Assembly (NCBI RefSeq): GCF_025245835.1
Contig: NZ_JAOBWS010000001.1
Location: 744,001 to 808,000, forward strand
Length of the DNA stretch: 64,000 nt
Direction of reading: 5' to 3'
Source of the DNA: Rheinheimera sp. 4Y26
GTDB taxonomy: Bacteria; Pseudomonadota; Gammaproteobacteria; Enterobacterales; Alteromonadaceae
Below the pieces are notes generated by a model. The model searched no databases. It was given only the letters and a program-made list of their open reading frames with translations, and had not been told where the DNA came from. The translations under genes were made by a program, and so were the position numbers. This document shows, piece by piece, positions 35,493-52,203 of the stretch. Every line of letters begins with the position of its first letter. Position 1 is the first letter of the stretch.

Positions 35493-35571
35493 GTTGTTGA
35501 TCCGCCTCCTTGCCCGTCCGGAACCACTATACCCCAGATCCAGGTTCAATAAAGTATCTGCTTGTTATAGT

Positions 35572-37426: not shown

Positions 37427-37497
37427 GTTACTGTGAACAGCGGCCGCTGTTGGCATCGGCTCTGGTTTAAACTGGCCGGCAACAATGAGGATATAAC

Positions 37498-38358
37498 ATG
37501 CAGCAACAAGACGAATATACGCCCCCCAAAGTCTGGGTCTGGGATCAACAAAACGGCGGCGCTTTTGCAAGTATCAACAGGCCTGTTGCCGGCGCTACCC
37601 ATGAAAAAACGTTGCCCAAAGGCCAGCACCCCTTGCAGCTTTATTCGCTGGCTACACCCAATGGCGTTAAAGTCACCATTATGCTCGAAGAGCTGCTGGA
37701 GGCCGGTTTTACCGGCGCTGACTATGACGCCTGGCTGGTGAGTATCCGCGAGGGCGACCAGTTTGGCTCAGGTTTTGTGGCCATAAACCCCAACAGCAAA
37801 ATTCCAGCTTTACTGGATACCTCGGTACAGCCTGAGCTTCGGGTGTTTGAGTCCGGCAATATTTTGTTGTATCTGGCAGAAAAATTTGGGGCATTTTTGC
37901 CAAGCACTCTTTCAGAGCGCACCGAAGTGCTGAACTGGTTATTCTGGCAAATGGGCAGTGCACCTTTTTTAGGCGGTGGTTTTGGTCATTTTTACGCTTA
38001 TGCCCCGCAAAAATTTGAATATGCCATTAACCGTTATACGATGGAAAGCAAAAGGCAGCTCGATGTATTAGAGCGCCAGCTGGCGCAGCAGCCTTATGTG
38101 GCCGGGCAAAACTACAGTATTGCCGATATCGCTATCTGGTCCTGGTATGGTGCTCTGGTGTTGGGCCGGTTATATAACGCCGCTGAATTTTTGGATGTAC
38201 AAAGTTATCCCAACCTGCAGCGCTGGGCGAAACTCATAGACGCCCGCCCGGCGGTGCAGCGGGGCATCAAAGTGAACCGCAACTGGGGCGAGCCGCACGA
38301 GCAACTGCCGGAGCGTCACAGTGCGGCTGATTTTTTGCAGCTGCCCAAAGCTGAATAA
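37498..38358 (+). CDS. yghU: Glutathione S-transferase, YghU type
   Basis: This is a glutathione/disulfide-bond oxidoreductase of the Nu-class GST (YghU/YfcG) family, 286 residues. The long N-terminal arm (YTPPKVWVWDQQNGGAFASINRPVAGATHE) and TPNGVKVTIMLEELL (with the catalytic TPN) are diagnostic, followed by NPNSKIPAL and a helical C-terminal domain. GGATATAAC precedes the ATG. It lies 71 bp after the PfpI-like gene and could share its transcript; both would suit a response to electrophiles or oxidation. Confidence 0.9.
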   Translation: MQQQDEYTPPKVWVWDQQNGGAFASINRPVAGATHEKTLPKGQHPLQLYSLATPNGVKVTIMLEELLEAGFTGADYDAWLVSIREGDQFGSGFVAINPNSKIPALLDTSVQPELRVFESGNILLYLAEKFGAFLPSTLSERTEVLNWLFWQMGSAPFLGGGFGHFYAYAPQKFEYAINRYTMESKRQLDVLERQLAQQPYVAGQNYSIADIAIWSWYGALVLGRLYNAAEFLDVQSYPNLQRWAKLIDARPAVQRGIKVNRNWGEPHEQLPERHSAADFLQLPKAE

Positions 38359-38551: not shown

Positions 38552-38607
38552 TATCTTGACATAGAGATTCTTCACGTATTAAATGAATTTATCTTTAAGT
38601 AAAGATA
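38552..38607 (+). promoter_or_regulatory. MarR-type operator pair and promoter of the trpF-like operon
   Basis: A perfect inverted hexamer, TATCTT-N6-AAGATA, lies at 38590-38607. A degenerate copy, TATCTT-N6-GAGATT, lies 38 bp upstream at 38552-38569. A TTGACA at 38556-38561 inside the upstream copy is followed 17 bp later by TTAAAT (38579-38584), so the two operators flank a plausible core promoter. The same operator recurs at 42818 and 47939. Confidence 0.65.
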
Positions 38608-38650
38608 CATCATGTTGAGATACAGACCAATACACCGAAGGGAGAGCAAA

Positions 38651-39328
38651 ATGAAACATCTGATCCAGGTAGCCGGCATTATCGACCGGCAGGAAGCACA
38701 ACTGATTGTTAATGAAGGCGTGGAGTGGCTGGGTTTTCCGCTTCGGCTGCCGTCGGGTCGCGACGATATCAGCGAGCAGGCTGCCATCGATATTATTGCC
38801 GGCCTGGAACAACCCCATGCCGGTGTGCTGATCAGTTATCTGACCGATGCGCAAGAAGTAAGTACATTTTGTCAGCAGCTTGGTGTCACCGCAGTGCAGC
38901 TGCATGGTGATATCAGTGTGGCAGAGATGCAAAAACTGCGTCAGTTAAGACCTGACCTGTGCATTCTGAAAAGCCTGGTGGTGAAAGAGGATAACGCCAG
39001 CGAGCTGCTGCAGCTGGTGGATCAGTGTGCTGAATATGTCGACATGTTTATTACCGATACCTACAACCCGAAGACGGGCGCTAAAGGGGCAACAGGTTTA
39101 ACCCATAACTGGGATGTCAGTGCTGAGCTGGTAAGACGCTCGCCAAAACCACTGATGTTGGCCGGTGGACTGACCCCGGACAACGTGGCTGCGGCTATCC
39201 GTCATGTCCGTCCTGCCGCCGTGGATGCGCATACGGGTCTGGAAGGGCCGGATGGGCGTAAGGATGCGGCAAGGATCCGCCGTTTTGTTGCACAAGCCCG
39301 CCAGGCTTTTGCCGAACTGGCCGCTTAA
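38651..39328 (+). CDS. TrpF-fold (phosphoribosylanthranilate isomerase-like) protein without the catalytic Cys
   Basis: This 225-residue protein has the (beta/alpha)8 pattern of TrpF: AVQLHGD (81-87), TDTYNPKTGAKGATG (135-149, keeping Asp136, the general acid), LAGGLTPDNVAAAI and VDAHTGLEGPDGRKD. In true TrpF the first strand reads KICGIT with a catalytic Cys; here it is IQVAGII, so Cys is replaced by Ala8. It is therefore unlikely to do the normal tryptophan-pathway reaction. It starts at 38651 with GGGAGAG upstream and leads an operon with a uracil phosphoribosyltransferase, PecM-like exporter and Old Yellow Enzyme. Confidence 0.8.
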   Translation: MKHLIQVAGIIDRQEAQLIVNEGVEWLGFPLRLPSGRDDISEQAAIDIIAGLEQPHAGVLISYLTDAQEVSTFCQQLGVTAVQLHGDISVAEMQKLRQLRPDLCILKSLVVKEDNASELLQLVDQCAEYVDMFITDTYNPKTGAKGATGLTHNWDVSAELVRRSPKPLMLAGGLTPDNVAAAIRHVRPAAVDAHTGLEGPDGRKDAARIRRFVAQARQAFAELAA

Positions 39329-39381
39329 ACCCTGTCAGCCCGCCTTTGAACGGCGGGCTGTTTTGTTGCAAGGAGCATCTT

Positions 39382-40080
39382 ATGTCTGCACAAATTCTGC
39401 CGGTGTCCCCGCTGCATGACGGCGCGGCGCTGCCTGTGATCGAACTGGCGCAAACTGACCGCTTGCGCGCCCTGCATGCCCAGATGCGGGATAAAAGAGC
39501 CTGCCAGTCTACTTTTACCTTTTACGCTGATCAGGTGATCCGCTTGCTGCTGGAGCAAGCTTATGCCCTGTTACCCTTTACCGATTATCAGGTCACGACA
39601 CCTTTGGGTGTGCCCTATCAGGGCAAACGCCTGGCGACCGGGCTTTGTGCTGTGTCTGTGATGCGGGCCGGTGAGAGTATGGAATTTGAATTGCAACGTA
39701 TTAACCGCGACATTCCGATTGGCAAAATTCTGGTGCAGCGCCATCAACAAAGCAAACAACCTCATTTGTATTACAGCAAACTGCCGGGAAATATTGCCGA
39801 CGGTTATGTGATGTTGTTTGAACCTATGCTGGCGACCGGTGGTTCGGCCTTGTGTGCGCTGGAGGTGTTGCTGGCCGAAGGCGTGAGAGCGGACCGTATT
39901 TTATTACTGAATTTATTGTCATCTCCTGCCGGCCTTGCCCGCCTTGCGCAGCAACAACCCCGGGTGCAGATCATCACCAGCAGCATCGAGCAGGGCCTGA
40001 CCGGGCAAGCCTATATGTTGCCGGGCATAGGGGACTTTGGCGATCGGTATTTTGGCACCTGGCAGGCGGAGGCGGTATGA
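39382..40080 (+). CDS. Uracil phosphoribosyltransferase, FUR1-like
   Basis: This enzyme would make UMP from uracil and PRPP. The 232-residue protein has RAGESME, IGKILVQRHQQS, YYSKLP, the PRPP loop EPMLATGGSA and a C-terminal PGIGDFGDRYFGT uracil-binding segment. From memory these read more like the eukaryotic FUR1 branch (RAGESME, DPMLATGGSA, PGLGDFGDRY) than like E. coli Upp. The first PRPP-loop Asp is Glu here. AAGGAG lies seven bases before the ATG. In the minimycin pathway a UPRT (MinD) gives self-resistance by raising UMP, a likely role here. Confidence 0.8.
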   Translation: MSAQILPVSPLHDGAALPVIELAQTDRLRALHAQMRDKRACQSTFTFYADQVIRLLLEQAYALLPFTDYQVTTPLGVPYQGKRLATGLCAVSVMRAGESMEFELQRINRDIPIGKILVQRHQQSKQPHLYYSKLPGNIADGYVMLFEPMLATGGSALCALEVLLAEGVRADRILLLNLLSSPAGLARLAQQQPRVQIITSSIEQGLTGQAYMLPGIGDFGDRYFGTWQAEAV

Positions 40081-40991
40081 GCAGCAGGTCTTATACGCTG
40101 GCGCTGCTCTGTGGTGTGCTTGCTGCCATCATTTGGGGTAGCACCTATGTGGTGACCACAGAATTGCTGCCGCCAGACCGACCTTTGCTGGCCTCGCTTG
40201 CCCGCGCGCTGCCGGCCGGGCTGCTGTTATTGTTGTGGCAACGTCAGCTGCCACAAGGCCATTGGTGGTGGCGTTCAGCCTTGCTGGGCAGTCTGAATAT
40301 AGGTGTGTTTTTTTATTGCCTTTTTGTCGCAGCTTATCATTTGCCGGGTGGAGTGGCGGCGCTGGTGATGTCTTGCCAGCCGGTGCTGGTGATGTTGTTC
40401 AGTGTGTTTTTATTGCATGAAAAACTCAGGTTGCGGCCTGTGCTTGCCGCCGGCATTGCCAGTGGTGGGGTGGCGCTGCTGGTGTCGGTGCAGGGGGCGG
40501 CGTTGTCGGTCACTGGTGTGGTGGCCGGTGTTCTTGGCGCGGCTTCAATGGCACTTGGCATAGTGCTTAGCAAAAAATGGCCCAAGCCGGCCGATATCAG
40601 CCTGGTGACTTTTACCGGCTGGCAACTGCTGGCCGGTGGTTTGTTGTTGTTGCCGCTGGCTTTGTATCAGGAAGGTTTACCCGATCGCATCAGCCTGCAA
40701 AATCTGGCCGGTTACAGTTATCTCTGTCTGATTGGTGCTGTGCTGGCGTATTTGTTGTGGTTCCGCGCTTTACAACGTTTACCGGCAGTAACCTTGTCTT
40801 TTTTAACCTTTACCAGCCCGGTTTCAGCATTGGTTTTTGGTTACCTTGTTTTAAATCAACAGCTTACTTTACAGCAATCGCTGGGGGCTGTGGCCATTTT
40901 GCTGGCGATAGTGCTGGCACAACGTCCGCCGGCGCCTGTGGTGCCCGCTGCTGACACTTCGTTGACTCCGTTACCTAAAGGAAAATTCTGA
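40077..40991 (+). CDS. pecM: PecM-like EamA/DMT exporter
   Basis: This is a ten-helix inner-membrane transporter of the drug/metabolite superfamily, 304 residues. The opening IIWGSTYVVTTELLPPDRPLLASLARALPAG is the PecM hallmark; in Dickeya PecM is linked with export of indigoidine and is paired with the MarR-family regulator PecS. Two EamA halves are visible, the second ending LSFLTFTSPVSALVFGYLVLNQQLT. Start ATGA overlaps the upstream stop, and the Old Yellow Enzyme start overlaps its stop by one base. Confidence 0.85.
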   Translation: MSSRSYTLALLCGVLAAIIWGSTYVVTTELLPPDRPLLASLARALPAGLLLLLWQRQLPQGHWWWRSALLGSLNIGVFFYCLFVAAYHLPGGVAALVMSCQPVLVMLFSVFLLHEKLRLRPVLAAGIASGGVALLVSVQGAALSVTGVVAGVLGAASMALGIVLSKKWPKPADISLVTFTGWQLLAGGLLLLPLALYQEGLPDRISLQNLAGYSYLCLIGAVLAYLLWFRALQRLPAVTLSFLTFTSPVSALVFGYLVLNQQLTLQQSLGAVAILLAIVLAQRPPAPVVPAADTSLTPLPKGKF

Positions 40992-42094
40992 TGGCATCTT
41001 TATATAGTCCACTGACGACAGGCGCTCTGGCGCTGCAAAACCGTTTTGTGATGGCTCCGATGAGCCGCAACCGCGCCACGGCCGATGGCCTCGCCACAGC
41101 GTTGATGGCGCAATATTATGCCCAGCGTGCCAGTGCCGGCCTTATCATCAGTGAAGGCATGCAGCCCAGTGTCACAGGCCAGGGTTTTGCCCAATCACCG
41201 GGTTTACACAACCAGCAACAGGCCGACAGCTGGCGGCCGGTCACTGCGGCTGTACACCGGCAGGGCGGCCGTATTGTGGCGCAGCTGATGCACGCCGGTC
41301 GCATCGGACATCCGTCTTTATATGCCAGTGCCCATCAGTCACTGGCACCTTCGGCTATTGCCGCCAGCGGTTTTGCTTATACCGCCGCTGGCCCACAGCC
41401 TTATCCGGTGCCACGCGCTATGACAGGTGCGGATATCCGGCAATGTATTGATGATTTTGCCACTGCCGCCCGTTTTGCCATAGAAGCAGGTTTTGACGGT
41501 GTGGAAATTCATGCCGGCAATGGATTTTTGCTGCATCAGTTTATGACACAACACTGTAACCAACGGACCGATCTGTATGGTGGCTCAGTGCAAAACCGGC
41601 TGCGGCTGACACTGGAGGTGGTGGCTGCAGTGGCAGATGCCATAGGGGCCCATCGCACCGGCGTGCGGTTGTCACCACAAAATCCATACAATGATATGCA
41701 GGAAGCAGATGCCATGATGTTGTATCCGGCCTTATGCCGTCAGCTGCCTGCGGATTTGGCTTATCTGCATCTGATGGAAGCAGCGAACCGCGATATGACC
41801 TTGCAGCTACGGCAGTTGTGGCAGGGTTGTCTGATCCTGAACCCGCATCAGAGTGCAGAGTCTGGTCCTGTGACCCCACAAATTGCTGCTGAAGTGCTGC
41901 AGCAGGATGTGGCAGACGCTGTTGCTTTTGGGGCTTTATTTCTGGCCAATCCGGATCTGGTGGCCAGAAGCCGGCGCGGCGGGCCTTATAACCAGCCGGA
42001 TGCCAACTTTTTTTATGGTGGGGATGCCACGGGTTATACCGACTATCCGACTTTGCAGTTAACACCACAGCCCGAGCCGGAAAGTTTGAGCTGA
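40991..42094 (+). CDS. Old Yellow Enzyme family alkene reductase
   Basis: This is an FMN-dependent NAD(P)H oxidoreductase of the NemA/OYE class, 367 residues. The barrel opens LYSPLTTGALALQNRFVMAPMSRNRA. The substrate-binding pair is present as EIHAGNGFLLHQF (His and Asn), followed by DLYGGSVQNRLRL and the late FGALFLANPDLVAR phosphate-binding stretch. It is the last gene of the trpF-like operon, translationally coupled to the exporter. It might reduce or oxidise the pathway's pyridine-type product or detoxify it; that is inference. Confidence 0.9.
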   Translation: MASLYSPLTTGALALQNRFVMAPMSRNRATADGLATALMAQYYAQRASAGLIISEGMQPSVTGQGFAQSPGLHNQQQADSWRPVTAAVHRQGGRIVAQLMHAGRIGHPSLYASAHQSLAPSAIAASGFAYTAAGPQPYPVPRAMTGADIRQCIDDFATAARFAIEAGFDGVEIHAGNGFLLHQFMTQHCNQRTDLYGGSVQNRLRLTLEVVAAVADAIGAHRTGVRLSPQNPYNDMQEADAMMLYPALCRQLPADLAYLHLMEAANRDMTLQLRQLWQGCLILNPHQSAESGPVTPQIAAEVLQQDVADAVAFGALFLANPDLVARSRRGGPYNQPDANFFYGGDATGYTDYPTLQLTPQPEPESLS

Positions 42095-42153
42095 CAGCCA
42101 GCCACTCTGGCAGGTTTTGGTAAGGACAACAGGCAAAGGGAAGCGCCTGTTGG

Positions 42154-42645
42154 CTACATGCCGTGTGACTGCAGCAGTTTTTTCAGCAGCTGCGCCAGTT
42201 GTTCCCGCTCAGCCTGACTCAGTGCCGCCAGCAGCTGGTCGCCTTTTGCCAAATGTCTGACCAGCGCTTTATCTATAATCTCCAGCCCTTTTGTTGTCAG
42301 AGACACCAGCACACCCCGGCGGTCATGAGGGTCCGGGCTTCGCATGACCAGTTGTTTTTCTTCAAGTTTGTCAATTCTATTGGTCATAGAACCCGAAGTC
42401 AGCATCAGGGTTTGCAACAGTTGATTGGGCGTGAGGGTATAAGGTTTGCCCGAGCGGCGCAGGGTGGCAATCACATCAAACTCGCCGCCATTGAGGCCAA
42501 ATTCACTAAAAACTGTACTCAGTTCGCGGTCAAATAATGCACAGCTTCGCACCAACCGGCCCATCACGGCCATAGGCGCCGGGTTTAGATCAGGACGCTC
42601 CTGTTGCCATTGCTGGATCACTGCATCCACTAAATCATCTTTCAT
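42154..42645 (-). CDS. pecS: MarR-family regulator, PecS-like
   Basis: This is a 163-residue dimeric winged-helix repressor. The N-terminal extension AVIQQWQQERPDLNPAPMAVMGRL and the EFDVIATLRRSGKPYTLTP segment recall PecS. Trp13, Asp57 and Arg64 fall where urate-responsive MarR proteins (HucR/PecS) keep ligand-linked Trp, Asp and Arg. The recognition helix region is TSGSMTNRIDKLEEKQLV, with a DPHDRRG wing. It sits between the trpF-like operon and the divergent synthetase, and a degenerate copy of the locus operator overlaps its own start. Confidence 0.85.
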   Translation of the reverse strand: MKDDLVDAVIQQWQQERPDLNPAPMAVMGRLVRSCALFDRELSTVFSEFGLNGGEFDVIATLRRSGKPYTLTPNQLLQTLMLTSGSMTNRIDKLEEKQLVMRSPDPHDRRGVLVSLTTKGLEIIDKALVRHLAKGDQLLAALSQAEREQLAQLLKKLLQSHGM

Positions 42646-42953
42646 TTTTATCTTCTCATGAAGTTTCTTTATAAAGAGGGATATTAGCTTGTGATTGATC
42701 GCTGAGCAATAGCGAACAACGGCGCATTAAAACTTAACAAAGACATTATAAATCAATGATAAACGCCGTGATTCTGTTTGATTATCCTCAGCTTTATGAC
42801 AATGTCATTAAATTATTAATCTTCATATAAAGATACTTGTTGTGAAGATTTTTGCTGTTATCTTGACATGGCAGTTTTTAACAGCGGCGCTTTAGCAGTC
42901 GCCGGTAAGTTTTTAGCAAACGACTTTTATTCAATGACAAGGAGGCAAACAGA
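42646..42953. promoter_or_regulatory. 308-bp divergent control region of marR/pecS and the synthetase
   Basis: There is no gene here. It contains a degenerate operator TATCTT-N6-AAGTTT at 42649-42666 touching the marR ribosome site, a perfect 12-bp palindrome TCTTTATAAAGA at 42666-42677, an inverted repeat ATGACA-A-TGTCAT at 42796-42808, a near-perfect operator AATCTT-N6-AAGATA at 42818-42835, and a TATCTTGACAT element at 42859-42869 that also occurs at 38552. The synthetase ribosome site AAGGAGG ends eight bases before its ATG. Confidence 0.65.
42818..42835 (+). promoter_or_regulatory. Operator of the synthetase gene
   Basis: AATCTT-CATATA-AAGATA differs from the perfect inverted hexamer at one base. 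TATAAA inside it (42826-42831) could be a -10 element, which would let a bound MarR protein block RNA polymerase. Confidence 0.65.
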
Positions 42954-45900
42954 ATGGAAAGAGTACAGTCAGAGGCCACTATTACAGTGTGCCCTATTCA
43001 GGCAGAGTTGCAGAGACAATCTGCACAGGGTTGCAGCGATTTGGCCACATTATTGTTATGGCAATGCCAGCGCCAGCCGGATGCAGTGGCGGTGCGCACA
43101 CAGCAGGAGGAACTGAGTTTTGCCAGCCTGGTGCAGCAGGCGGGTGACATTGCCCAGGTATTGGTCAACCAGACACAACCACAGGACCAATGTATTGGTT
43201 TATTTATGGAGCCTGGTACTGACTTGATCCGTGGCGTGTGGGGCATTCTGTTTGCCGGAGGCTGTTATCTGCCATTGTCGCCTGAATATCCGGCTGAGCG
43301 TATTCAATACATGTTGCAGGATGCCGGTGTGTCCGTGGTGTTAACCCAGCGGCATTTGCGCTCACAACTGCAGCAGTTGGCACCTGACACTCTGACTATT
43401 TTGACAGTGGAAGATTTACCTGCCGGTATATCGCCATTTAAGCCCCGGCTGGATGAGCGGCAGCTGGCCTATATGATTTACACCTCGGGCAGTACCGGCA
43501 AACCCAAAGGGGTGATGATTGAACACCGCAGTATTACTGCGCAGCTGCAGTGGCTGGCAACGGAATACGGTTTTGACCACAACACGGCCATTTTGCAAAA
43601 AACACCTTTTAGTTTTGATGCGGCGCAGTGGGAAATTCTGGCGTCGGCTATGGGCGCGACTGTGGTGGTGGGGGCTGCGGGCATTTACCGCGACCCACCG
43701 GCTTTATTAGATACAGTGGCCGAGCTTGGGGTCACGGTATTACAAGGCGTGCCGACCTTATTACAAGCATTATTGGAAGTGCCGGGTTGCAGTATCGCCA
43801 GTGGTTTAAAGTTTATTTTCAGTGGTGGTGAGTTATTAACCCGGCAACTGGCGACAGATCTGCTGAACACTTTTAACAAGTGCCGGCTGGTGAATTTGTA
43901 TGGCCCAACCGAGTGCACTATTAATTCTTCTGCTTTTGAAGTGACGGCCAATCAGCTGGCGCAAATCCCGCTGGCGGTGCCTATTGGTTACCCGGTGGCA
44001 AACAGCCGTTATTATGTGCTGGATGCGGCTTTACAACAGGTGGCGCCTGGTGAAACCGGCGAACTTTATATCAGTGGTATCCAGCTGGCACGCGGTTATT
44101 ATCAGCGGCCAGATCTCACTGAAGAACGTTTTATCCCAAATCCGCACAGCAGTGAGCCTTTGCATCAAAGTCTGTACCGCACCGGCGATCTGGCGCGGAT
44201 GGACGCAGATGGCAATACCCATTTTGTCGGCCGGGTGGATAATCAGGTGAAGCTGCGTGGTTATAGAGTGGAGCTGGATGAAATACGGTTGCAGATTGAA
44301 AAACACCGCTGGATCAAAAATGCCGCTGTGCTGGTGCAACCCGACAGCAGAACCGGCAGTGATCAGCTGATTGCCTGTATTGAATTGGACAAACAACAAG
44401 CCAGCCTGATGGATCAGGGCCGCCAGGGCGCGCACCATCAGTCAAAACAAAATAAATTACAGGTTAAAGCCCAGTTGTCTGATGCCGGACTACGCCAGGA
44501 GCATGAACTGTTGGGATACAGCCAGCTACCGCTGCCGGGCGCTGAAGCTTCGGCCGGACAAAAAGCGCTGGTATTTGCCCGTAAAACCTACCGCTTTTTT
44601 CAGGGGGGGGCTGTGAGTCAGCAAGAATTGACTGCGCTGTTACAAAGTACAGCACCAGTGCCTGCCGCAGTCAGATCGTTGCCGAGCCTGAGTTTTGCCG
44701 ACTTTGGTTATCTGCTGCGTTATTTTGGCCAGTATCACAGCAGCGAGCGGCTGTTACCTAAATATGGCTTTGCCTCACCCGGTGCTTTATACGCGACGCA
44801 GCTTTATCTGGAAATTGACGGGCTGTTTGGCCTGGACAGTGGTTTTTATTATTACCAGCCAAAGCAGCACAGCCTGTATTTAGTGGCCGGCAAAACTGCA
44901 GCGGCAAAACCTGGCCTGAAGCTGCATTTTATTGGCCGGGTGAGCGCTATTGAACCTGTGTATCAGAACAATATTGCCGAAGTGCTGGAGATGGAAGCCG
45001 GCCATATGCTGGGGCTGTTTGATCAGGTGTTGCCTGAATTTGGTCTTGGCATCACAGAACACAGTTTTGCGCCAGAGCTCAAGCCGCTGTTGGCGGTGGA
45101 TGTGCAGGATTTGTATCTGGGGTCTTTTGCCGTCGACAGTTGGCAGGCACCGGATTGCCCTGTGACACAGATTTTGCAGGTGCAGCCAGGTGCAGTGACG
45201 GGGTTGGCTGAGGGCCAGTACTTGTGGCAGGACGCTACTTTACAGTTTCTTGACCAGCAACGTATTGAAGAATCAGACGTTATTGCCATTAATCAGCAGG
45301 TGTATCAGCGTGCCAGTTTTGGTATTGGCCTGCTCAGCCAGAGTCAGGACCACTGGTATCAGTACATTGCACTGGGCCGGCGTTTACAGCAACTGCAACA
45401 AAATGGTTTGCAGCTGGGCCTGATGTCGTCGGGCTACAGTTCAAAATCCGGCCATCCGCTTCATGCAGCGCTTCGGATGGATGCACTTTGTGACGCCCGG
45501 CAGATGCCAAAAGCGGCATTTTATTTTGCCATTGGTGGCAAAGTCAGCCCGCAGCAGCAAGCCTGCACCGGCATGCAGGAAGACAGTATCCATATGCGCG
45601 GACCGGCCGAAATTTTGCGGGATGAACTGCAAAACAGCCTGCCGGCTTATATGGTTCCGAACAATATTGTGGTGTTTGACCGCTTCCCGCACACTGCCAA
45701 CGGCAAAATTGACATGCAGGCGCTGCGTCAGTCTCCCCAGGTGCAAAGCAGCAACAATGCAGCTCCTATGCTGGCACCCCGTAACGACACTGAAACCATA
45801 TTGCTGAGCCTGTGGCAACAAAGTCTGCGGCTGGCGCAGGTGTCGGTACTGGATGACTTTTTTGCCTGTGGTGGCAATTCGTTAAAAGCGGTGGCGCTGA

Positions 45901-46838
45901 TGCATCAGATCAATCAGCAGTTCGGTTTGCAATTACCGATGCAGGCCATTTTTACCGCGCCCACTATCGCGGCTTTGGCGGAATTAGTGCAACAAGCCGC
46001 CACAGAGGACAAAGCGCAGAGCCGGTTATTGCTGCTGCATCAGGCGCACAGCGAAAAGAATATTTTCTGCTGGCCCGGCCTGGGTGGTTATCCGATGAAT
46101 CTGCGGTTGTTGGCCGAAGCCACGGCCGGCGGGCAGAATTTTTATGGTGTGAAAGCCGAAGGTCTGGAGCCAGGTGAACAGATCCAGCCCGATATCAGCG
46201 CTATGGCGCAGGCGGATATTGCTTTGCTGAAACAGGTGCAGCCAGAAGGGCCTTACCGCATCTGGGGTTATTCTTTTGGCGCCAGGGTGGCCTTTGAAGT
46301 GGCTTATCAGCTGGAACAGCAGGGTGATGTGGTGAAACAGTTATTTTTACTGGCTCCTGGTTCGCCAAAACTCCAGTGTGAAAATCAAAGCGGTCTGGCT
46401 GATTTTGCCGAACCCGCTTTTGTCACAGTGTTGTATTCGGTTTTTGCACAGAAAATCAGCGGACCTTTGTTACAACAATGTCTGCAACAAGCCCGTTGTC
46501 AGGACTCCTTTGTCGATTTTATCTGTCAGCATTACCGCACATTGCCCAGAAAGCTGGTGGACCATATTGTCAGCCTGGTGCGTCAAACCTATCAGTACCG
46601 TTATACCTTTGCCGAACTCAGTCAGCGCCGGCTGAAAGTTGCGCCAGTGCTGTTTAAAGCCAGAGGCGATGATTACGCCTTTATTGAGGCGGTCGGCCGC
46701 GAGCTGGGCTTAGTAGAAGTGCAGCTGGAGGCTTGTCATTACAGCCTGTTGCAGGCCAGCGGCATGAAAGAGCTCAGTGGTTACATTCAGCGTTACCAGC
46801 AGCTGAGCCGGCAACTGGAAAAATTGCAGTCTGCCTGA
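42954..46838 (+). CDS. indC: Indigoidine-synthetase-type NRPS (A-Ox-T-TE)
   Basis: This 1294-residue single-module synthetase has the architecture of IndC/BpsA, which turns two L-Gln into the blue pigment indigoidine. The adenylation domain shows YMIYTSGSTGKPKG (173-186), NLYGPTE (314-320), YRTGDLAR (408-415) and GRVDNQVKLRGYRVELDEI (426-444). A nitroreductase-like oxidation domain (about 515-880) is inserted before the last A motif NGKID (916-920). The carrier serine is Ser976 (CGGNSLKA), and the thioesterase has GYSFG with Ser1107 and a late His1262. Pocket residues Asp222, Ala223 and Trp226 fit a Gln-type code by my own alignment. Confidence 0.92.
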   Translation: MERVQSEATITVCPIQAELQRQSAQGCSDLATLLLWQCQRQPDAVAVRTQQEELSFASLVQQAGDIAQVLVNQTQPQDQCIGLFMEPGTDLIRGVWGILFAGGCYLPLSPEYPAERIQYMLQDAGVSVVLTQRHLRSQLQQLAPDTLTILTVEDLPAGISPFKPRLDERQLAYMIYTSGSTGKPKGVMIEHRSITAQLQWLATEYGFDHNTAILQKTPFSFDAAQWEILASAMGATVVVGAAGIYRDPPALLDTVAELGVTVLQGVPTLLQALLEVPGCSIASGLKFIFSGGELLTRQLATDLLNTFNKCRLVNLYGPTECTINSSAFEVTANQLAQIPLAVPIGYPVANSRYYVLDAALQQVAPGETGELYISGIQLARGYYQRPDLTEERFIPNPHSSEPLHQSLYRTGDLARMDADGNTHFVGRVDNQVKLRGYRVELDEIRLQIEKHRWIKNAAVLVQPDSRTGSDQLIACIELDKQQASLMDQGRQGAHHQSKQNKLQVKAQLSDAGLRQEHELLGYSQLPLPGAEASAGQKALVFARKTYRFFQGGAVSQQELTALLQSTAPVPAAVRSLPSLSFADFGYLLRYFGQYHSSERLLPKYGFASPGALYATQLYLEIDGLFGLDSGFYYYQPKQHSLYLVAGKTAAAKPGLKLHFIGRVSAIEPVYQNNIAEVLEMEAGHMLGLFDQVLPEFGLGITEHSFAPELKPLLAVDVQDLYLGSFAVDSWQAPDCPVTQILQVQPGAVTGLAEGQYLWQDATLQFLDQQRIEESDVIAINQQVYQRASFGIGLLSQSQDHWYQYIALGRRLQQLQQNGLQLGLMSSGYSSKSGHPLHAALRMDALCDARQMPKAAFYFAIGGKVSPQQQACTGMQEDSIHMRGPAEILRDELQNSLPAYMVPNNIVVFDRFPHTANGKIDMQALRQSPQVQSSNNAAPMLAPRNDTETILLSLWQQSLRLAQVSVLDDFFACGGNSLKAVALMHQINQQFGLQLPMQAIFTAPTIAALAELVQQAATEDKAQSRLLLLHQAHSEKNIFCWPGLGGYPMNLRLLAEATAGGQNFYGVKAEGLEPGEQIQPDISAMAQADIALLKQVQPEGPYRIWGYSFGARVAFEVAYQLEQQGDVVKQLFLLAPGSPKLQCENQSGLADFAEPAFVTVLYSVFAQKISGPLLQQCLQQARCQDSFVDFICQHYRTLPRKLVDHIVSLVRQTYQYRYTFAELSQRRLKVAPVLFKARGDDYAFIEAVGRELGLVEVQLEACHYSLLQASGMKELSGYIQRYQQLSRQLEKLQSA

Positions 46839-46855
46839 GTCAGTATTGCTGCAGG

Positions 46856-46882
46856 CTCCGCGTGATAAAACGCGGGGTTTTT
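46856..46882 (+). terminator. Terminator-like hairpin between the synthetase and the psuG-like gene
   Basis: The stem CTCCGCGT / ACGCGGGG (8 bp with one G-T pair) has the loop GATAAA and is followed by TTTTTATC. It ends 54 bases before the psuG-like start, for which I see no separate operator, so the downstream gene may depend on read-through. A second hairpin GGGCCGG / CCGGCCC follows at about 46893-46911. Confidence 0.65.
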
Positions 46883-46935
46883 ATCAACCCTGGGGCCGGT
46901 CTGCCCGGCCCGTTATTTATTGTCTGGAATACATG

Positions 46936-47919
46936 ATGCAAAAATCCCTTTTTACCGGCAGGGCTACTCTGCCGCTGCCACTTTATTACAGCGCCGAAGT
47001 AAAGGCGGCACTGGCGCAACAACAAGCCGTGGTTGCGCTGGAGTCCAATGTGATTTGTCAGGGGCTGGATTACCCGCAGAATCTGCAAACGGCGCTGGCG
47101 CTGGAACAGATAGTGCGCGCCAAAGGTGCTGTGCCGGCAACACTGGCGGTATTGCATGGCGAAATCCGGGTTGGTCTGACTGAAGACGAACTGGAGTATC
47201 TGGCCACCCGGCCGCAAATCCCAAAGATCAGCAGCCGTGATTTAGCTTTTGTGCTGGCCAGTGGCAGCAGTGGTGCCACTACTGTGGCCTGTTCTTTACA
47301 AATTGCCGCCCATGCCGGCATCCGCTTTTTTGCTTCGGCCGGTTTGGGAGGGGTGCACCGTGGTGCCCAACAGAGTATGGATATTTCCGGAGATTTAATT
47401 GAACTGACCCGAAACGGGCTGGCGGTGGTTTGTGCCGGTGCTAAAAATATCCTGGATCTGGGACTGACGCTGGAATTTCTGGAAACCCATAATGTGCCTG
47501 TAGTTTCTTATCAGTTTGATGATTTTCCTGCGTTTTATTGTCGATCTTCCGGTTTAAAAGCCCCGAGACGGCTGGATGACCCATGGCAGCTGGCGGCCGC
47601 TCTTGAATGGCAAGCTGCAATAGCCCCCGGTATCAGCACGCTGATTTGTACACCCACAGCAGAAGCAGACGCTTTGGACGCCGCTTTAGTAGAGCAGGCC
47701 ATTACTGAAGCGACTGCGGCAGCGGCACAAGCGGGCATCAGCGGTAATGGCCTGACCCGTTTTATTATGAAAGCCGTTGAAAAGGCCACGGCGGGTTTGT
47801 CGGCACAGGCCAATGCGGCTGTACTGCGCCATACCACTGCAGTTGCCGCCGAACTTGCCGTAGTGCATGCCCGTTATTGCCAGCAACTGCAGCAAGATGG
47901 CAGTCAGGCTTTTGGTTGA
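46936..47919 (+). CDS. indA: Pseudouridine-5'-phosphate glycosidase-like protein (IndA type)
   Basis: This is a homologue of PsuG, which reversibly joins uracil and ribose-5-phosphate through a C-C bond; in indigoidine loci the homologue is IndA. The 327-residue protein has ALESNVICQGLDYPQN, ASAGLGGVHRGAQQSMDISGDLIEL, CAGAKNILDLGLTLEFLET (keeping the catalytic Lys of the Schiff base) and GNGLTRFIMKAVEKAT. ATG at 46936 has GGAA at spacing six; ATG at 46933 is the alternative. The partner HAD phosphatase (IndB) is absent. Confidence 0.88.
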   Translation: MQKSLFTGRATLPLPLYYSAEVKAALAQQQAVVALESNVICQGLDYPQNLQTALALEQIVRAKGAVPATLAVLHGEIRVGLTEDELEYLATRPQIPKISSRDLAFVLASGSSGATTVACSLQIAAHAGIRFFASAGLGGVHRGAQQSMDISGDLIELTRNGLAVVCAGAKNILDLGLTLEFLETHNVPVVSYQFDDFPAFYCRSSGLKAPRRLDDPWQLAAALEWQAAIAPGISTLICTPTAEADALDAALVEQAITEATAAAAQAGISGNGLTRFIMKAVEKATAGLSAQANAAVLRHTTAVAAELAVVHARYCQQLQQDGSQAFG

Positions 47920-47956
47920 CAAAAAAAATTTCGACATATATCTTCATGTAAAGATA
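47916..47956 (+). promoter_or_regulatory. Promoter and perfect MarR-type operator of the RND efflux operon
   Basis: The perfect inverted hexamer TATCTT-CATGTA-AAGATA occupies 47939-47956. A TTGACA at 47916-47921, overlapping the psuG-like stop codon, lies exactly 17 bp upstream, so the first operator arm would be the -10 hexamer. Binding there should repress the pump genes. Confidence 0.65.
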
Positions 47957-48010
47957 CTTTATGTAAACATTGCTGCTCTGTGTCAGAGTCAGCCTGTCAG
48001 GAGGACACCG

Positions 48011-49105
48011 ATGAAACTGATGCCATGGTCTATTACCGTTATTTTGTTGGCGCTGCTTGCTGCCTTGGTCAGTTTGTTACGCCAGTGGCAGCAAAGTGGC
48101 CCGGTTGGCAACATGGAACAATCCGCCACCGTCACAGCACAAACTGTCGCCAGTCAGCTGTATCAACCCAGACGACAGGTCAGTGGTGTGCTCAAAGCGC
48201 CGCAATATTTGCAACTGACCAATGAATTGTCCGGCACTGTCAGCAGGTTAAATTTCAGTTCAGGTGCTGTGGTGGAAAAAAATCAGGTGTTGCTGGAAAT
48301 TGATCATCAGGAAGAGCTGGCGCGGCTGGCCGCTACTGAAGTGCGGCTGGCACAACAGCAAAAAACAGTGCGGCGTTATCAGCAACTGTACCAAGGGCAA
48401 AAAGTCAGTACCGAAGCACTGGAACTGGCGCAGGCCCGTCTCAGTGAATTGCAGGCGGAACAACAGGTACTGCAGAGCGTGATTGGCAAAAAAGTGCTCA
48501 GAGCGCCGTTTCGTGCCAGGGCCGGCATTCATGATCTGCAACAAGGCCAGTTTTTAGAGCGGAATCTGGTGTTAACCACACTGGTTGGTTTGACCGACCA
48601 CAGCTGGGTGGATTTTTCGGTGCCTCAGGGATTACCTGAGCTGGCAAAGGGCGACAAAGTGGATGTGTATCTGCCTGGCAAAACACAGGCGATGACGGCG
48701 CAGGTGGTTTCAGTGGAAGCTGAAGTCAGTAGCCGTTTGCGCCAGCTCAGATACCGGGCCAGTTTGCCGGCCAGTCAACAACAGTTACGTGCCAATCAGC
48801 TGGTGCAGGTGGATTTTGCCACTGGTGTATCGCAGCAGTTGCCGGTGATCCCGGCCACGGCAGTGGTGCGGGATCAACTGGGTGACTATGTGTATTTACT
48901 GGAAAAAGACCCCGCCGGCGTACTCAGAGCCAAAAGACAACAGGTGCAGCTGGGGGCCAGGTTGGGGGAGCAGGTGCTGGTGACTGCGGGCTTGCAACAG
49001 GCGCAGCTGATCGCCAATGAAGGTGCTTTTAAACTGCGGGATGGGTTAAGGGCACAAGTAACAGCCAAAGCAGCCGACAGCCTGACTGCTGCGGCGGAGT
49101 TCTGA
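48011..49105 (+). CDS. RND efflux periplasmic adaptor
   Basis: This is the membrane-fusion subunit of an RND pump, 364 residues. It starts at 48011 with GGAGG six bases upstream. A membrane anchor (SITVILLALLAALVSLL) is followed by a lipoyl half (LNFSSGAVVEKNQVLLEID), a short coiled-coil hairpin, KKVLRAPFRARAGIHDLQQGQFL and beta-barrel and membrane-proximal domains. The permease starts two bases later. The operator at 47939 ties it to the pigment-type locus. Confidence 0.92.
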   Translation: MKLMPWSITVILLALLAALVSLLRQWQQSGPVGNMEQSATVTAQTVASQLYQPRRQVSGVLKAPQYLQLTNELSGTVSRLNFSSGAVVEKNQVLLEIDHQEELARLAATEVRLAQQQKTVRRYQQLYQGQKVSTEALELAQARLSELQAEQQVLQSVIGKKVLRAPFRARAGIHDLQQGQFLERNLVLTTLVGLTDHSWVDFSVPQGLPELAKGDKVDVYLPGKTQAMTAQVVSVEAEVSSRLRQLRYRASLPASQQQLRANQLVQVDFATGVSQQLPVIPATAVVRDQLGDYVYLLEKDPAGVLRAKRQQVQLGARLGEQVLVTAGLQQAQLIANEGAFKLRDGLRAQVTAKAADSLTAAAEF

Positions 49106-49107
49106 AC

Positions 49108-52100
49108 ATGAGCAGTTCAGCTAAGCGCAGCACCGACATTTTTGTCAGTCGTCCTATTCTTGCCATTGTTTTTTCATTGTTGATTTGTTTTGGTGGGCTG
49201 TGGGCAGCAAAAGAAATTGCCGTCTTACAGTTTCCGCGTCTGGAAAGTACAGCGCTGGAAATCAGCACCCGCTATACCGGCGCGGCAGCGGCCACAGTTA
49301 AAGGTTTTATTACCGATCCGGTAGAGCGGGTGGCCGCCACTATTCCGGGGCTTGATTATGTGGACTCAGTCAGTAAAGCCGGTGAAAGCAAAGTCACCGT
49401 TTATCTGCGCCTGAATGAAGACAGTACCAGGGCGCTGGCCGAGCTGAACAGTAAACTCAGCCAGATCCGGTACCAGTTGCCCGCCGGGGCTGAAGATCCG
49501 CTGGTAAACGTAAAAAGGGCCGACCGGCCTCATGCGTTGTTTTATTTAAATGTCAGTGCAGCTGGTATTCCACTGAGTCAGTTAACCGACTATTTATCCA
49601 GACAGGTGACCCCTGTGCTTGGCAATATTCCCGGTGTACAAAAAGTGGATATTGAAGGGCGTCGTACCCCGGCGATGCGGGTGACGCTGGATGCAGACAG
49701 CCTCAGCGCCTTTAATTTAAGCCCCGATGATGTCTGGCAGGCGTTAGCGGCCAATAACAGTATTGCCACCTTAGGTTTTACCGAAACCAGCAAGCAACGT
49801 ATTGATTTAGTTGCCAATACCCAACTGGCCACCGCTGAAGACTTTGCCAGTCTGATTGTGCGTCAGGCAGAAGGACAAACTGTGTACCTGCGCGATCTGG
49901 CCACAGTGGCGCTGGCGCATGAAGAGGCGGTGATGACAGCGCGGCTTGATCAGCAGGACACAGTGTACCTGTCGGTCTGGCCTTTGCCCGGCGCCAATGA
50001 AATAGCGGTGGGTGATGCGCTTTATGCGGCAACGGCGGCGCTGAACCCGACGCTGCCGGACGGGGTTGAGATCCAATACGCCTACGACGGCACCTTGTAT
50101 ATGCGGGATGCGCTGAAAGAAATTTTTATCACCCTGGCGGAAACCATTTTGCTGGTGGCACTGGTGGTGCTACTGATGATGGGCTCACTGCGCACTGCCG
50201 CAGTGCCTTTGGTCACTATTCCGGTGTCTATTCTCGGCGCCATTGCCGCTATCAGTCTGGCGGGTTTTTCACTGAATCTGTTAACGGTGCTGGCGATAGT
50301 GCTGTCGGTGGGGCTGGTGGTGGATGACGCCATTGTGGTGGTGGAAAACGTGGCAAGGCTGGTGCGTCAGGGGCATTCGCGTTATCAGGCGGCCTTACTC
50401 AGTGCGCGGCAATTGTTTACGCCGATAGTGGCCATGACACTGACGCTGGCAGCTGTGTATGCGCCTATTGGTTTGTTATCGGGTCTGAGCGGGGTGCTGT
50501 TCCGTGAGTTTGCTTTTACCCTGGCCATTGCGGTGATTATTTCCGGCGTGGTGGCTGTGACTTTATCGCCTGTGATGAGCAGTTGGGTGATTGCCGACGC
50601 CGGGCGGGAAAGCCGGTTCAGCCAAAGGGTGAACCACAGTTTTGGCCGTTTTAGTCATCTATACCGCCGTGCACTGCTGTGGGCCCAGCGGTTTCGGTTG
50701 CAGTTATTAAGCAGCGCTTTGTTACTCAGCCTGTTATTGCTGCCGTTTTATCAGGGCTCACAAAAAGAGCTGGCGCCGGTGGAAGATCAAAGCAGTATTT
50801 ATGTGCTGGTGCAGTCGCCGCCGGAATCTTCGTTGTTATATAACGAACAACAAATGCGGCCTATGGTGGATGACCTGTTAAAACTGCCGGGTGCAACACA
50901 GATGTGGCAGAATATTTTTATCAATGGCGCTTTTGGCGGTATCGAATTCAGCCCCGCAAAAGAGCGGCAGCAAAGTACCCAGCAGTTGTTGGGGCAGGTA
51001 TATGGTGTATTGTCGGCGCAGCCCGGTATTCAGCCTTTGCCCATTATGCCTGCGCCTTTGCCCACTGCCGGCCAGTTTGATGTAGAGCTGGTGGTCAAAG
51101 CCAATGCGCCTTATCAGGAGCTGAAAGAATACGCTGATAAGCTGGTGGGGGCGGCCTTTGCCAGTGGCCATTTTTTATATGCTGACACCGATTTAAAAAT
51201 TGATTTGCCCCAGACTGAATTGCGGTTAGACCGCGATAAAATTGCCGATTTAGGCTTGCAAATCGCCGATGTCAGCCAGCAGTTGTCGGTGTTGCTGTCG
51301 GGAAATTATGTCAACAGGTTTGATGCTCAGGGCAAGGCGTATCAGGTGATCCCGCTTTTAAGCCAGAATTTGCGTGCTGATGTCAGCCGCTTGCTGGATT
51401 TACCGATCAAAACCGCGGACGGCAGTCTGTTGCCCTTGTCTGATATTGCCCGGCTGCACTGGCAAACAGTGCCCCGTCAGCTCAATAGTTTTTCCCAGCA
51501 AAATGCGGTGCGCATTTATGGCGGGGTAGCTCCTGGCAGTACCAAAGAAAGTGCATTGTTGGCACTGGAAGCTGCAGCGCATCAGTTGCTGCCAGCAAGT
51601 TACCTGCTGGATTATGCCGGGGAGTCCAGACAACTCCGCCAGCAGGGCACTTCTATGTTGCAGGTGATGATGTTGTCGTTACTGGTGGTGTACCTGCTGC
51701 TGGCGGTGCAATTTAACAGCTTCCGTGACCCGCTGGTGGTGCTCTTTGGCAGTGTACCGCTGGCTTTGTCGGCGGCAATGTTGTTGTCTTATCTGGACTT
51801 CACCACGCTGAACATTTATTCGCAGATTGGCCTGGTGACGCTGGTTGGGCTGGTGGCAAAAAACGGCATTCTGATTGTGGAATTTGCCAATCATCTGCAA
51901 CTGACGGGTTTAAGCCGGGCTCAGGCCGCCATTGAAGCAGCAGTCAGCCGGTTCCGCCCTGTGATGATGACAACTGCGGCTACTGTGCTTGGCCATTTTC
52001 CACTGGTGCTGGTCAGTGGCGCCGGTGCGCAAGCCCGCAACAGCATTGGCATTATGTTAGTGGCGGGTATGTTATTAGGTACCTTGTTTACACTTTTTGT

Positions 52101-52203
52101 GCTGCCGCTCTGTTATCAGCTGTTTGCGACAACACGGCAGCAGACAGCTGCGCCAGCGAGTGAGGCCATAGCAGCTGACGCACTGCTTTTAAGCCAAAAA
52201 TAA
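49108..52203 (+). CDS. RND efflux permease
   Basis: This is a proton-driven inner-membrane pump of the AcrB/MexF superfamily (HAE1-like), 1031 residues. It has 12 helices, two large periplasmic loops, the proton-relay pair in GLVVDDAIVVVENVARLV, and a second-half signature IGLVTLVGLVAKNGILIVEFANHLQ. The N-terminus FVSRPILAIVFSLLICFGGLWAA is typical. No outer-membrane channel gene is adjacent, so it must borrow a TolC-like protein. It probably exports the locus product or its toxic intermediates. Confidence 0.94.
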   Translation: MSSSAKRSTDIFVSRPILAIVFSLLICFGGLWAAKEIAVLQFPRLESTALEISTRYTGAAAATVKGFITDPVERVAATIPGLDYVDSVSKAGESKVTVYLRLNEDSTRALAELNSKLSQIRYQLPAGAEDPLVNVKRADRPHALFYLNVSAAGIPLSQLTDYLSRQVTPVLGNIPGVQKVDIEGRRTPAMRVTLDADSLSAFNLSPDDVWQALAANNSIATLGFTETSKQRIDLVANTQLATAEDFASLIVRQAEGQTVYLRDLATVALAHEEAVMTARLDQQDTVYLSVWPLPGANEIAVGDALYAATAALNPTLPDGVEIQYAYDGTLYMRDALKEIFITLAETILLVALVVLLMMGSLRTAAVPLVTIPVSILGAIAAISLAGFSLNLLTVLAIVLSVGLVVDDAIVVVENVARLVRQGHSRYQAALLSARQLFTPIVAMTLTLAAVYAPIGLLSGLSGVLFREFAFTLAIAVIISGVVAVTLSPVMSSWVIADAGRESRFSQRVNHSFGRFSHLYRRALLWAQRFRLQLLSSALLLSLLLLPFYQGSQKELAPVEDQSSIYVLVQSPPESSLLYNEQQMRPMVDDLLKLPGATQMWQNIFINGAFGGIEFSPAKERQQSTQQLLGQVYGVLSAQPGIQPLPIMPAPLPTAGQFDVELVVKANAPYQELKEYADKLVGAAFASGHFLYADTDLKIDLPQTELRLDRDKIADLGLQIADVSQQLSVLLSGNYVNRFDAQGKAYQVIPLLSQNLRADVSRLLDLPIKTADGSLLPLSDIARLHWQTVPRQLNSFSQQNAVRIYGGVAPGSTKESALLALEAAAHQLLPASYLLDYAGESRQLRQQGTSMLQVMMLSLLVVYLLLAVQFNSFRDPLVVLFGSVPLALSAAMLLSYLDFTTLNIYSQIGLVTLVGLVAKNGILIVEFANHLQLTGLSRAQAAIEAAVSRFRPVMMTTAATVLGHFPLVLVSGAGAQARNSIGIMLVAGMLLGTLFTLFVLPLCYQLFATTRQQTAAPASEAIAADALLLSQK

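Follow-up and report, generated by a model that had tools for sequence, protein, structure and literature searches.

The window analyzed here is a stretch of 64,000 nucleotides from the 4.08-Mb genome of Rheinheimera sp. 4Y26, and the locus in question occupies 13.6 kb of it, at about 38.55-52.20 kb. It codes for an indigoidine-type synthetase together with a relative of phosphoribosylanthranilate isomerase (TrpF-like protein), an enzyme of the uracil phosphoribosyltransferase (UPRT) family, a PsuG/IndA-type enzyme, an Old Yellow Enzyme (OYE)-family flavoprotein, a MarR regulator, and two export systems (Table 1). All genes which an earlier note had named from the letters and open frames of this DNA were recovered with open frames where that note had placed them (Pfam, NCBIfam), and its assignment to the genus Rheinheimera agrees with the 92-93% identity of the TrpF-like protein to three Rheinheimera records. 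For the TrpF-fold gene, its presence stood, whereas the likely start had to be corrected to the ATG at 38651, which has GGGAGAG ahead of it.

TABLE 1 Features of the Rheinheimera locus, with positions counted from the first nucleotide of the window.
Feature	Position	Strand	Evidence or remark
Weaker operator copy, 2 mismatches	38553-38568	.	Near candidate operator 1
Candidate operator 1, ATCTTTAAGTAAAGAT	38591..38606	.	45 bp ahead of TrpF-like start; 1 of 3 looser-pattern genome matches
TrpF-like protein, Ala replacing catalytic Cys	38651..39328	+	PF00697 E 5.7e-21; model pLDDT 95.2
UPRT-family phosphoribosyltransferase	39382..40080	+	PF14681 E 6.8e-67
EamA/DMT exporter, PecM-like by position only	40077..40991	+	EamA E 2.4e-44 (Pfam, NCBIfam)
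OYE-family flavoprotein, Phe179 at proton-donor Tyr position	40991..42094	+	E 7.8e-76
MarR regulator, putatively PecS-type	42154..42645	-	Pfam MarR; best PDB 8ylf, 9e-45
Candidate operator 2, ATCTTCATATAAAGAT	42819..42834	.	Between marR and synthetase
Indigoidine-type synthetase A-Ox-T-TE, 1294 aa, code DAWQISLINK	42954..46838	+	Pfam A, T, TE
PsuG/IndA-type C-glycosidase/synthase	46933..47919	+	PF04227 E 1.4e-105
Candidate operator 3, ATCTTCATGTAAAGAT	47940..47955	.	Ahead of MFP gene
RND (resistance-nodulation-division) periplasmic adaptor (MFP, membrane fusion protein)	48011..49105	+	Pfam, NCBIfam
RND efflux permease	49108..52203	+	Pfam, NCBIfam

The grouping of these genes is more than chance, because three other Rheinheimera genomes contain the block as one piece, located in two kinds of place. 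A cluster-type TrpF-like gene is present in 4 of the 22 genomes of the genus (the own genome, G004, G007, and G018), the matches in G002 and G020 being ordinary trpF only (35%). Alignment of the own genome with the three others yields a single block at about 38.5-52.1 kb with 76-82% DNA identity, which has the same neighbors in G018 and different ones in G004 and G007. The cluster-free genome G008 shares the left flank up to 38349, including a pair of PfpI and glutathione S-transferase (GST) genes, and then diverges, with no cluster behind. These limits therefore assign the RND genes to the unit and exclude PfpI and GST from it. Note that G004, G007, and G018 are the genomes of loci L009, L008, and L010 of the wider scan reported below (and G343 is that of L015), so that the two Rheinheimera sets represent one piece of evidence.

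Active sites of the cluster enzymes

The TrpF-like protein is modeled as a TrpF beta/alpha barrel, with 1dl3, 4aaj, 1nsj, and 1lbm as the best matching folds. The Cys of the K-[IV]-C-G motif of TrpF, the catalytic general base, is replaced by Ala in all 52 cluster rows of the alignment (including the two duplicates L034 and L040) and in all 16 rows from standalone genes, i.e., in 68 of 68, whereas the ordinary TrpFs of these hosts show Cys in 14 of 16 rows and a gap in the other two. The ordinary set consists of 16 of the rows L080-L109, the remaining 14 being TrpF-like and not counted as ordinary, and L071, a match of 30 residues, was not used. Ala7, Arg31, Asp38, Asp135, His151, and His193 are invariant across the 68 TrpF-like rows, in which the Asp of the catalytic pair of TrpF is kept. 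The window protein reaches at best 123.4 bits against an NCBIfam TrpF equivalog cut-off of 215, stays well below every NCBIfam TrpF cut-off listed, and passes the cut-off of the Pfam family. A housekeeping role can be ruled out from the Ala in place of Cys and from the ordinary trpCF found elsewhere in the own genome, which also has an ordinary upp gene. In a phylogenetic tree, all 52 cluster rows group together (support 0.95), with the 16 standalone rows branching outside. The standalone genes (L055-L070, e.g., L062:10001-10660 and L068:10001-10654) code for the same altered active site and come from Ignavibacteria, Planctomycetota, Desulfacinum, and other hosts. Their neighbors were discarded as a clue to function: a Pfam scan of ten neighbors revealed no common theme, no family being found beside more than 4 of the 16 genes, and two pairs of these loci share a stretch.

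The other three accessory enzymes were compared without the duplicates L034 and L040. The UPRT is closest to the solved chains 1upf and 1bd3 (1.5e-60), which are Toxoplasma enzymes, compared to 7.6e-30 for the bacterial 1v9s, and it shows the phosphoribosyl pyrophosphate (PRPP) loop [ED]-P-x-x-A-T, followed by Gly or Ala, in 50 of 50 rows. The gene which the earlier note had regarded as a PsuG/IndA homologue appears as such: it is the sole PF04227 match in the genome, and the 44 rows keep the residues that correspond to the catalytic set of Escherichia coli PsuG, namely Glu, two Lys, and Asp (one Lys being the site of the Ala mutation in 4gim). The OYE carries Phe179 in 30 of 30 rows at the position of the proton-donor Tyr of the family (Y196 in OYE1), with His174 and Asn177 kept, whereas its two best solved relatives carry Tyr in the motif H-x-x-[NH]-G-Y. 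Loss of the proton-donor Tyr in OYE1 reportedly impairs the reduction of C=C bonds and spares that of quinones. Taken together with the replacement of OYE by a flavodoxin-type reductase in other loci (see below), the Phe residue therefore suggests that this OYE performs a quinone-like reduction.

Pfam identifies the adenylation (A), thiolation (T), and thioesterase (TE) domains of the synthetase, which follow the order A-Ox-T-TE with the oxidation (Ox) domain inserted in the A domain. The inserted stretch itself has no Pfam match, but a model based on 31 sequences (pLDDT 90.4) matches nitroreductase folds, ThcOx, and BmdC with E-values of 1.8e-9 to 1e-7 and modest TM-scores of 0.34-0.55 by query length. 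The ten positions of the A-domain code were placed by motif, with the numbering of GrsA. In an alignment of 56 rows, which contains two pairs of identical records (L034 = L004, L040 = L005) and leaves out sequences below 600 bits (L042, cut loci), the codes of the other 55 vary solely at positions 5, 6, or 7, as in Epibacterium ulvae (DAWQVSLINK), Streptomyces lavendulae (DAWQISVINK), and Leisingera (DAWQLSLINK). The enzyme thus appears to be of the indigoidine type as the earlier note had it, since its code differs from those of reported indigoidine producers only at these positions, and both the flavin fold and the glutamine code on which that note had made its proposal depend are apparent at the sequence level. 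The TE motif GYSFG is present in 56 of 56 rows, and the T-domain motif GGNSL in the window synthetase and the six commonest variants (29 of 56 rows). Tyr804 of the Ox domain is kept in 55 of 56 rows and aligns with the Tyr at position 262 of the BmdC chain 7ly7_B, but this pairing comes from a second stretch of weak score (6.0 bits, i-Evalue 44); equating the latter with the published Tyr260 of BmdC assumes an offset of two residues. The analogous tyrosine of indigoidine synthetase has been proposed as general base in the BmdC paper. Besides an AcpS-sized match, the genome contains one other match to the phosphopantetheinyl transferase family, a frame of 297 aa located elsewhere, which is Sfp-like by size only.

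Distribution of the gene set, operator and regulator

One pattern-based scan of species genomes, reaching 10 kb to either flank, yielded 64 loci: 47 of the cluster kind (L008-L054), the 16 standalone genes, and one fragment. The UPRT gene adjoins the TrpF-like gene in all 47 cluster loci. PsuG is found in 41, all six misses being cut by a contig or flank end, and the synthetase also in 41, with five misses being cut and one true miss within 10 kb, the Kitasatospora locus L025, where genes for TrpF-like protein, UPRT, EamA, PsuG, and OYE are present. A sub-branch of 13 actinobacterial loci (L041, L043-L054) is characterized by a DJ-1/PfpI gene upstream of the TrpF-like gene, by a flavodoxin-type reductase replacing OYE in 12 of the 13, and by a tautomerase fused to the synthetase in ten. 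Over all 47 loci, EamA occurs in 39 (several kb off in five of the DJ-1 group), a free or fused tautomerase in 35, MarR in 21, a PRPP synthetase in 16 (6 within the DJ-1 group, 10 outside), and DJ-1/PfpI in 14, Rheinheimera L010 among them. OYE is encoded in 28 loci. Another 12, all of the DJ-1 group, have the flavodoxin-fold FMN reductase (one member scanned, Pfam FMN_red), and the two never occur together. Neither of them is present in L016, L017, and L047, which contain the TrpF-like protein and the synthetase, nor in four cut loci. MFP genes were recorded in six loci and the RND permease in one, a low count because the 10-kb flank stops ahead of the RND gene. Clustering of the unannotated neighbors yielded mostly antisense frames in high-GC genomes.

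No cluster locus has the TrpF-like gene without UPRT, though all 16 standalone loci do, and UPRT without the TrpF-like gene occurs: the annotated stretch of Streptomyces NBC_00158 lacks the TrpF-like and OYE genes and retains UPRT, PsuG, and PRPP synthetase, and that of Streptomyces W1SF4 contains only EamA, tautomerase, and synthetase, both nesting among TrpF-bearing Streptomyces in the synthetase tree. This pattern fits a TrpF-like protein acting after UPRT, but the losses occurred on just two related plasmids. Seven of 394 genomes of the same order harbor a synthetase, two of them with the cluster TrpF-like gene (the own genome and G343) and five without it, and the synthetase is therefore independent of this protein. 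Monophyly of the TrpF-bearing synthetases was considered and dropped, as the deep nodes of the tree are weak and synthetases of the igi type lie inside.

Of the combination of genes which the earlier note did not recognize, the TrpF/UPRT/PsuG/synthetase set is in fact widespread and is already known from plasmid pET44827 of Corynebacterium aurimucosum (Trost et al., 2010; PMC2830990). There, the synthetase, IndA, a phosphoribosyltransferase, a phosphoribosylanthranilate isomerase homologue, and a PecS-like regulator were listed, and the phosphoribosyltransferase and isomerase homologue were suggested as possible activators of the synthetase (Trost et al., 2010), a role which is not supported by their families. 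The plasmid shares with the window the TrpF-like protein (54% identical), UPRT, synthetase, PsuG/IndA, PecS-like MarR, and EamA, and differs in having an NmrA-like protein that binds NAD(P)H, as well as a tautomerase, with no OYE or RND in the stretch examined. A TrpF-like protein with 70% identity is encoded with UPRT, EamA, PsuG, OYE (annotated as "alkene reductase"), and synthetase on pSA3239 of S. lavendulae CCM 3239 (auricin region), which has a tautomerase, a PRPP synthetase (also present in NBC_01276), and a SARP regulator of its own and no annotated MarR or RND. E. ulvae U95 (L038) shares the same six proteins and has a tautomerase, whereas MarR, MFP, and RND were not detected in its 20.7-kb locus. 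The igi clusters of Leisingera, Rhizobium, and Bradyrhizobium have the synthetase family and A-domain code in common with the window and typically contain an arylmalonate decarboxylase, an NAD(P) oxidoreductase, a tautomerase, MFS, and TetR, but no TrpF-like protein, UPRT, or PsuG; the tautomerase is absent in Bradyrhizobium, and the decarboxylase and oxidoreductase are not annotated in Rhizobium CB3171. The min cluster for minimycin, finally, shares a MinA-type synthetase, a MinB-type PsuG, a MinD-type UPRT, and a transporter; MinB is regarded as C-glycosynthase and MinD as self-resistance UPRT in a review (PMC8724604). The window locus lacks the MinC protein (HAD/DUF4243) and the tautomerase domain and contains the TrpF-like protein, OYE, MarR, and RND in addition.

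The 16-bp palindrome ATCTTYAWRTAAAGAT is perfectly matched three times in the window, once ahead of each of the three operons, and allowing up to two mismatches gives seven strand-wise matches at four sites compared to 0.05 expected. The looser form ATCTTNANNTNAAGAT matches exactly three times in the 4.08-Mb genome, always at the three operons of the cluster, and 4, 4, and 3 times in G004, G007, and G018, every time inside the cluster; it has no match in the cluster-free genomes G008, G001, and G003, and the reversed-pattern control gave none in six of the seven genomes and one in G007. Because the palindrome precedes each of the three operons and occurs nowhere else in the genome, the RND pump looks to be co-regulated with the biosynthetic operons. 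The third copy overlaps a promoter-like site at 47916-47944, a type of site which is not above chance frequency here. A still looser form is found at the same three places in Rheinheimera (L008-L010) and Pseudoalteromonas (L011-L012) and once ahead of the TrpF-like gene in each of the cut loci L015 and L019. No match is present in the remaining 44 of the 51 loci L004-L054, which include every alphaproteobacterial and actinobacterial locus as well as Chromohalobacter and Shewanella L014. In the L015 genome (G343; L160, L161), TrpF-UPRT-EamA-OYE is located near a contig end and MarR-synthetase-PsuG-MFP-RND on a second contig, about 39 kb away from the start of the latter. The operons are thus possibly unlinked in this genome, with synthetase and RND still together. 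The MarR protein shares the motif W-x-x-E-R-P-D-L with 8ylf and 8ylh, entries whose names do not mention PecS, and is 35% identical to the C. aurimucosum regulator named PecS-like in print (PMC2830990). The MarR control suggested in the earlier note is consistent with this putative PecS-type regulator lying beside a conserved candidate operator, and the protein would be expected to bind the palindrome. Within the presumed first operon, a strong terminator-like stem with a T tail (39336-39360) separates the TrpF-like and UPRT genes and is possibly an attenuator.

Interpretation of the locus

With moderate confidence, we favor the interpretation that the indigoidine-type synthetase feeds a phosphoribosyl branch, in a mobile secondary-metabolite locus with all three operons under a PecS-type repressor. 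We infer substrates, reactions, and order of steps as follows. The synthetase would load glutamine, oxidize and cyclize it to an aminopyridinedione, the precursor of indigoidine, and release the product, part of which may dimerize to blue indigoidine while part would be ribosylated. PsuG/IndA would join ribose 5-phosphate to a ring carbon, like MinB, while UPRT and the TrpF-like protein would represent a second phosphoribosyl step or pair of steps, in which the transferase uses PRPP and the TrpF-like protein isomerizes or opens the phosphoribosyl group with an active site unlike that of true TrpF. Lacking its proton donor, the OYE would probably serve to reduce a ring of quinone type instead of a C=C bond, and the EamA and RND pumps would export the product. 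Control of the three operons would be exerted by the PecS-type repressor at one palindrome, and the locus may move between genomes. More tentatively, and as a possibility rather than a probability, the TrpF-like protein may found a new TrpF subfamily with a new phosphoribosyl isomerase reaction, which together with UPRT and the indigoidine-type synthetase would lead to an undescribed class of glutamine-derived ribosyl metabolites in Proteobacteria and Actinomycetota, the same enzyme acting alone in Ignavibacteria, Planctomycetota, and others.

Several observations weigh against the phosphoribosyl branch or the mobility and regulation assumed with it. The uracil-site motif GDFGDR of UPRT is kept in 50 of 50 rows and fits plain self-resistance as for MinD, and none of the nine cluster genes codes for a phosphatase according to Pfam. 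A profile of 29 cluster tautomerases found no tautomerase in the 64-kb window (the rest of the genome was not searched) or in L008-L010, and the gene is missing at both Rhodococcus loci, too. None of the 16 genomes with standalone TrpF-like genes has a PsuG match, which is weak evidence because 15 of them are metagenome-assembled genomes; a general tie of the TrpF-like protein to PsuG was given up on these grounds, and its reaction therefore need not concern a C-nucleotide. The G+C content of the block (53.2%) is close to that of the flanks (51.0 and 52.3%), and composition therefore gives no sign of recent transfer. The strict palindrome is found in just 6 of the 51 cluster loci, all gammaproteobacterial, and was not detected on the contig which carries synthetase and RND in L015. 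Finally, the pigment of C. aurimucosum, which has the same set, is described as black, not blue (PMC2830990).

A serious, if rather unlikely, rival is a plain indigoidine locus, which would yield the pigment itself, with UPRT, PsuG, the TrpF-like protein, and OYE protecting the cell or recycling side products, e.g., by boosting uridine monophosphate, breaking down C-ribosides, or reducing quinones. E. ulvae U95 with the same set shows indigoidine peaks by HPLC/MS (PMC7989816), the S. lavendulae CCM 3239 genes are referred to as blue-pigment indigoidine genes (PMC10409956), and a MinD-type UPRT is reported to confer self-resistance (PMC8724604); NBC_00158 and W1SF4 moreover lack TrpF and OYE or all ribosyl genes in their annotated stretches, both keeping synthetase, tautomerase, and EamA. 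However, four igi-type loci do without TrpF-like protein, UPRT, and PsuG, and mere protection is hard to square with a UPRT gene beside the TrpF-like gene in 47 of 47 loci. We regard as improbable a logic resembling tryptophan synthesis, in which UPRT phosphoribosylates a nitrogen of the aminopyridinedione, as TrpD does with anthranilate, and the TrpF-like protein generates a 1-deoxyribulose adduct of the Amadori type, with possible closure to a fused ring. The TrpF fold, the kept Asp of the TrpF pair, the constantly adjoining phosphoribosyltransferase, the PRPP synthetase in 16 of 47 loci, and an activity untied to PsuG (0 of 16) would agree with it; the Ala for the general-base Cys in 68 of 68 rows and the intact GDFGDR of UPRT speak against it.

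A locus for minimycin (oxazinomycin) or a closely similar C-nucleoside, one of the outcomes considered in the earlier note, is very improbable. The counterparts of MinA, MinB, and MinD and a transporter are present, and 10 of 47 relatives have a synthetase-tautomerase fusion like that of MinA, but Pfam identifies no MinC among the nine genes, the own genome lacks any match to DUF4243 (PF14027), and the matches in 4 of 16 genomes are never at the cluster, so that the assignment was rejected. Minimycin as product seems unlikely also because the tautomerase required by its route was not found at the four Rheinheimera loci and because the route, as summarized in the review, has no place for a TrpF-like protein or OYE (PMC8724604).

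The loci filed as "indigoidine" comprise at least two kinds, one of which pairs the synthetase with phosphoribosyl enzymes, including a constantly altered TrpF-like protein. In the literature searched, which excludes most subscription papers, we found no mention of this set recurring in several phyla, of the altered active sites in OYE and the TrpF-like protein, or of the palindrome at three operons. The earlier note mentions neither these active sites and the palindrome nor the absence of a tautomerase. If the enzymes indeed act on aminopyridinedione, a nucleoside-like compound may have been overlooked in many "blue pigment" strains, and the antibacterial and antinematode activity of an E. 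ulvae fosmid, which has tentatively been attributed to indigoidine (PMC7989816), would need re-examination. A TrpF relative lacking the catalytic Cys and conserved across several phyla also represents a clean test case for a barrel gaining new reactions.

Flanking genes

The PfpI (DJ-1) and GST genes at 36671-38358 of the window flank the cluster beside a LysR gene. They were rejected as cluster members, as PfpI matches occur in 14 of the 22 genus genomes, 11 of them cluster-free, while the cluster-bearing G004 has no PfpI match and G008 has the PfpI-GST pair without the cluster. Further upstream, a gene at 33570-35549 shows GGDEF-like features by eye. G008 (L141) lacks this gene in a flank that is collinear apart from it, the positions matching 33546 and 35535 being almost next to each other there. 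In G004 and G007, a GST-like stretch is located on the opposite side of the cluster, no more than 5 kb away.

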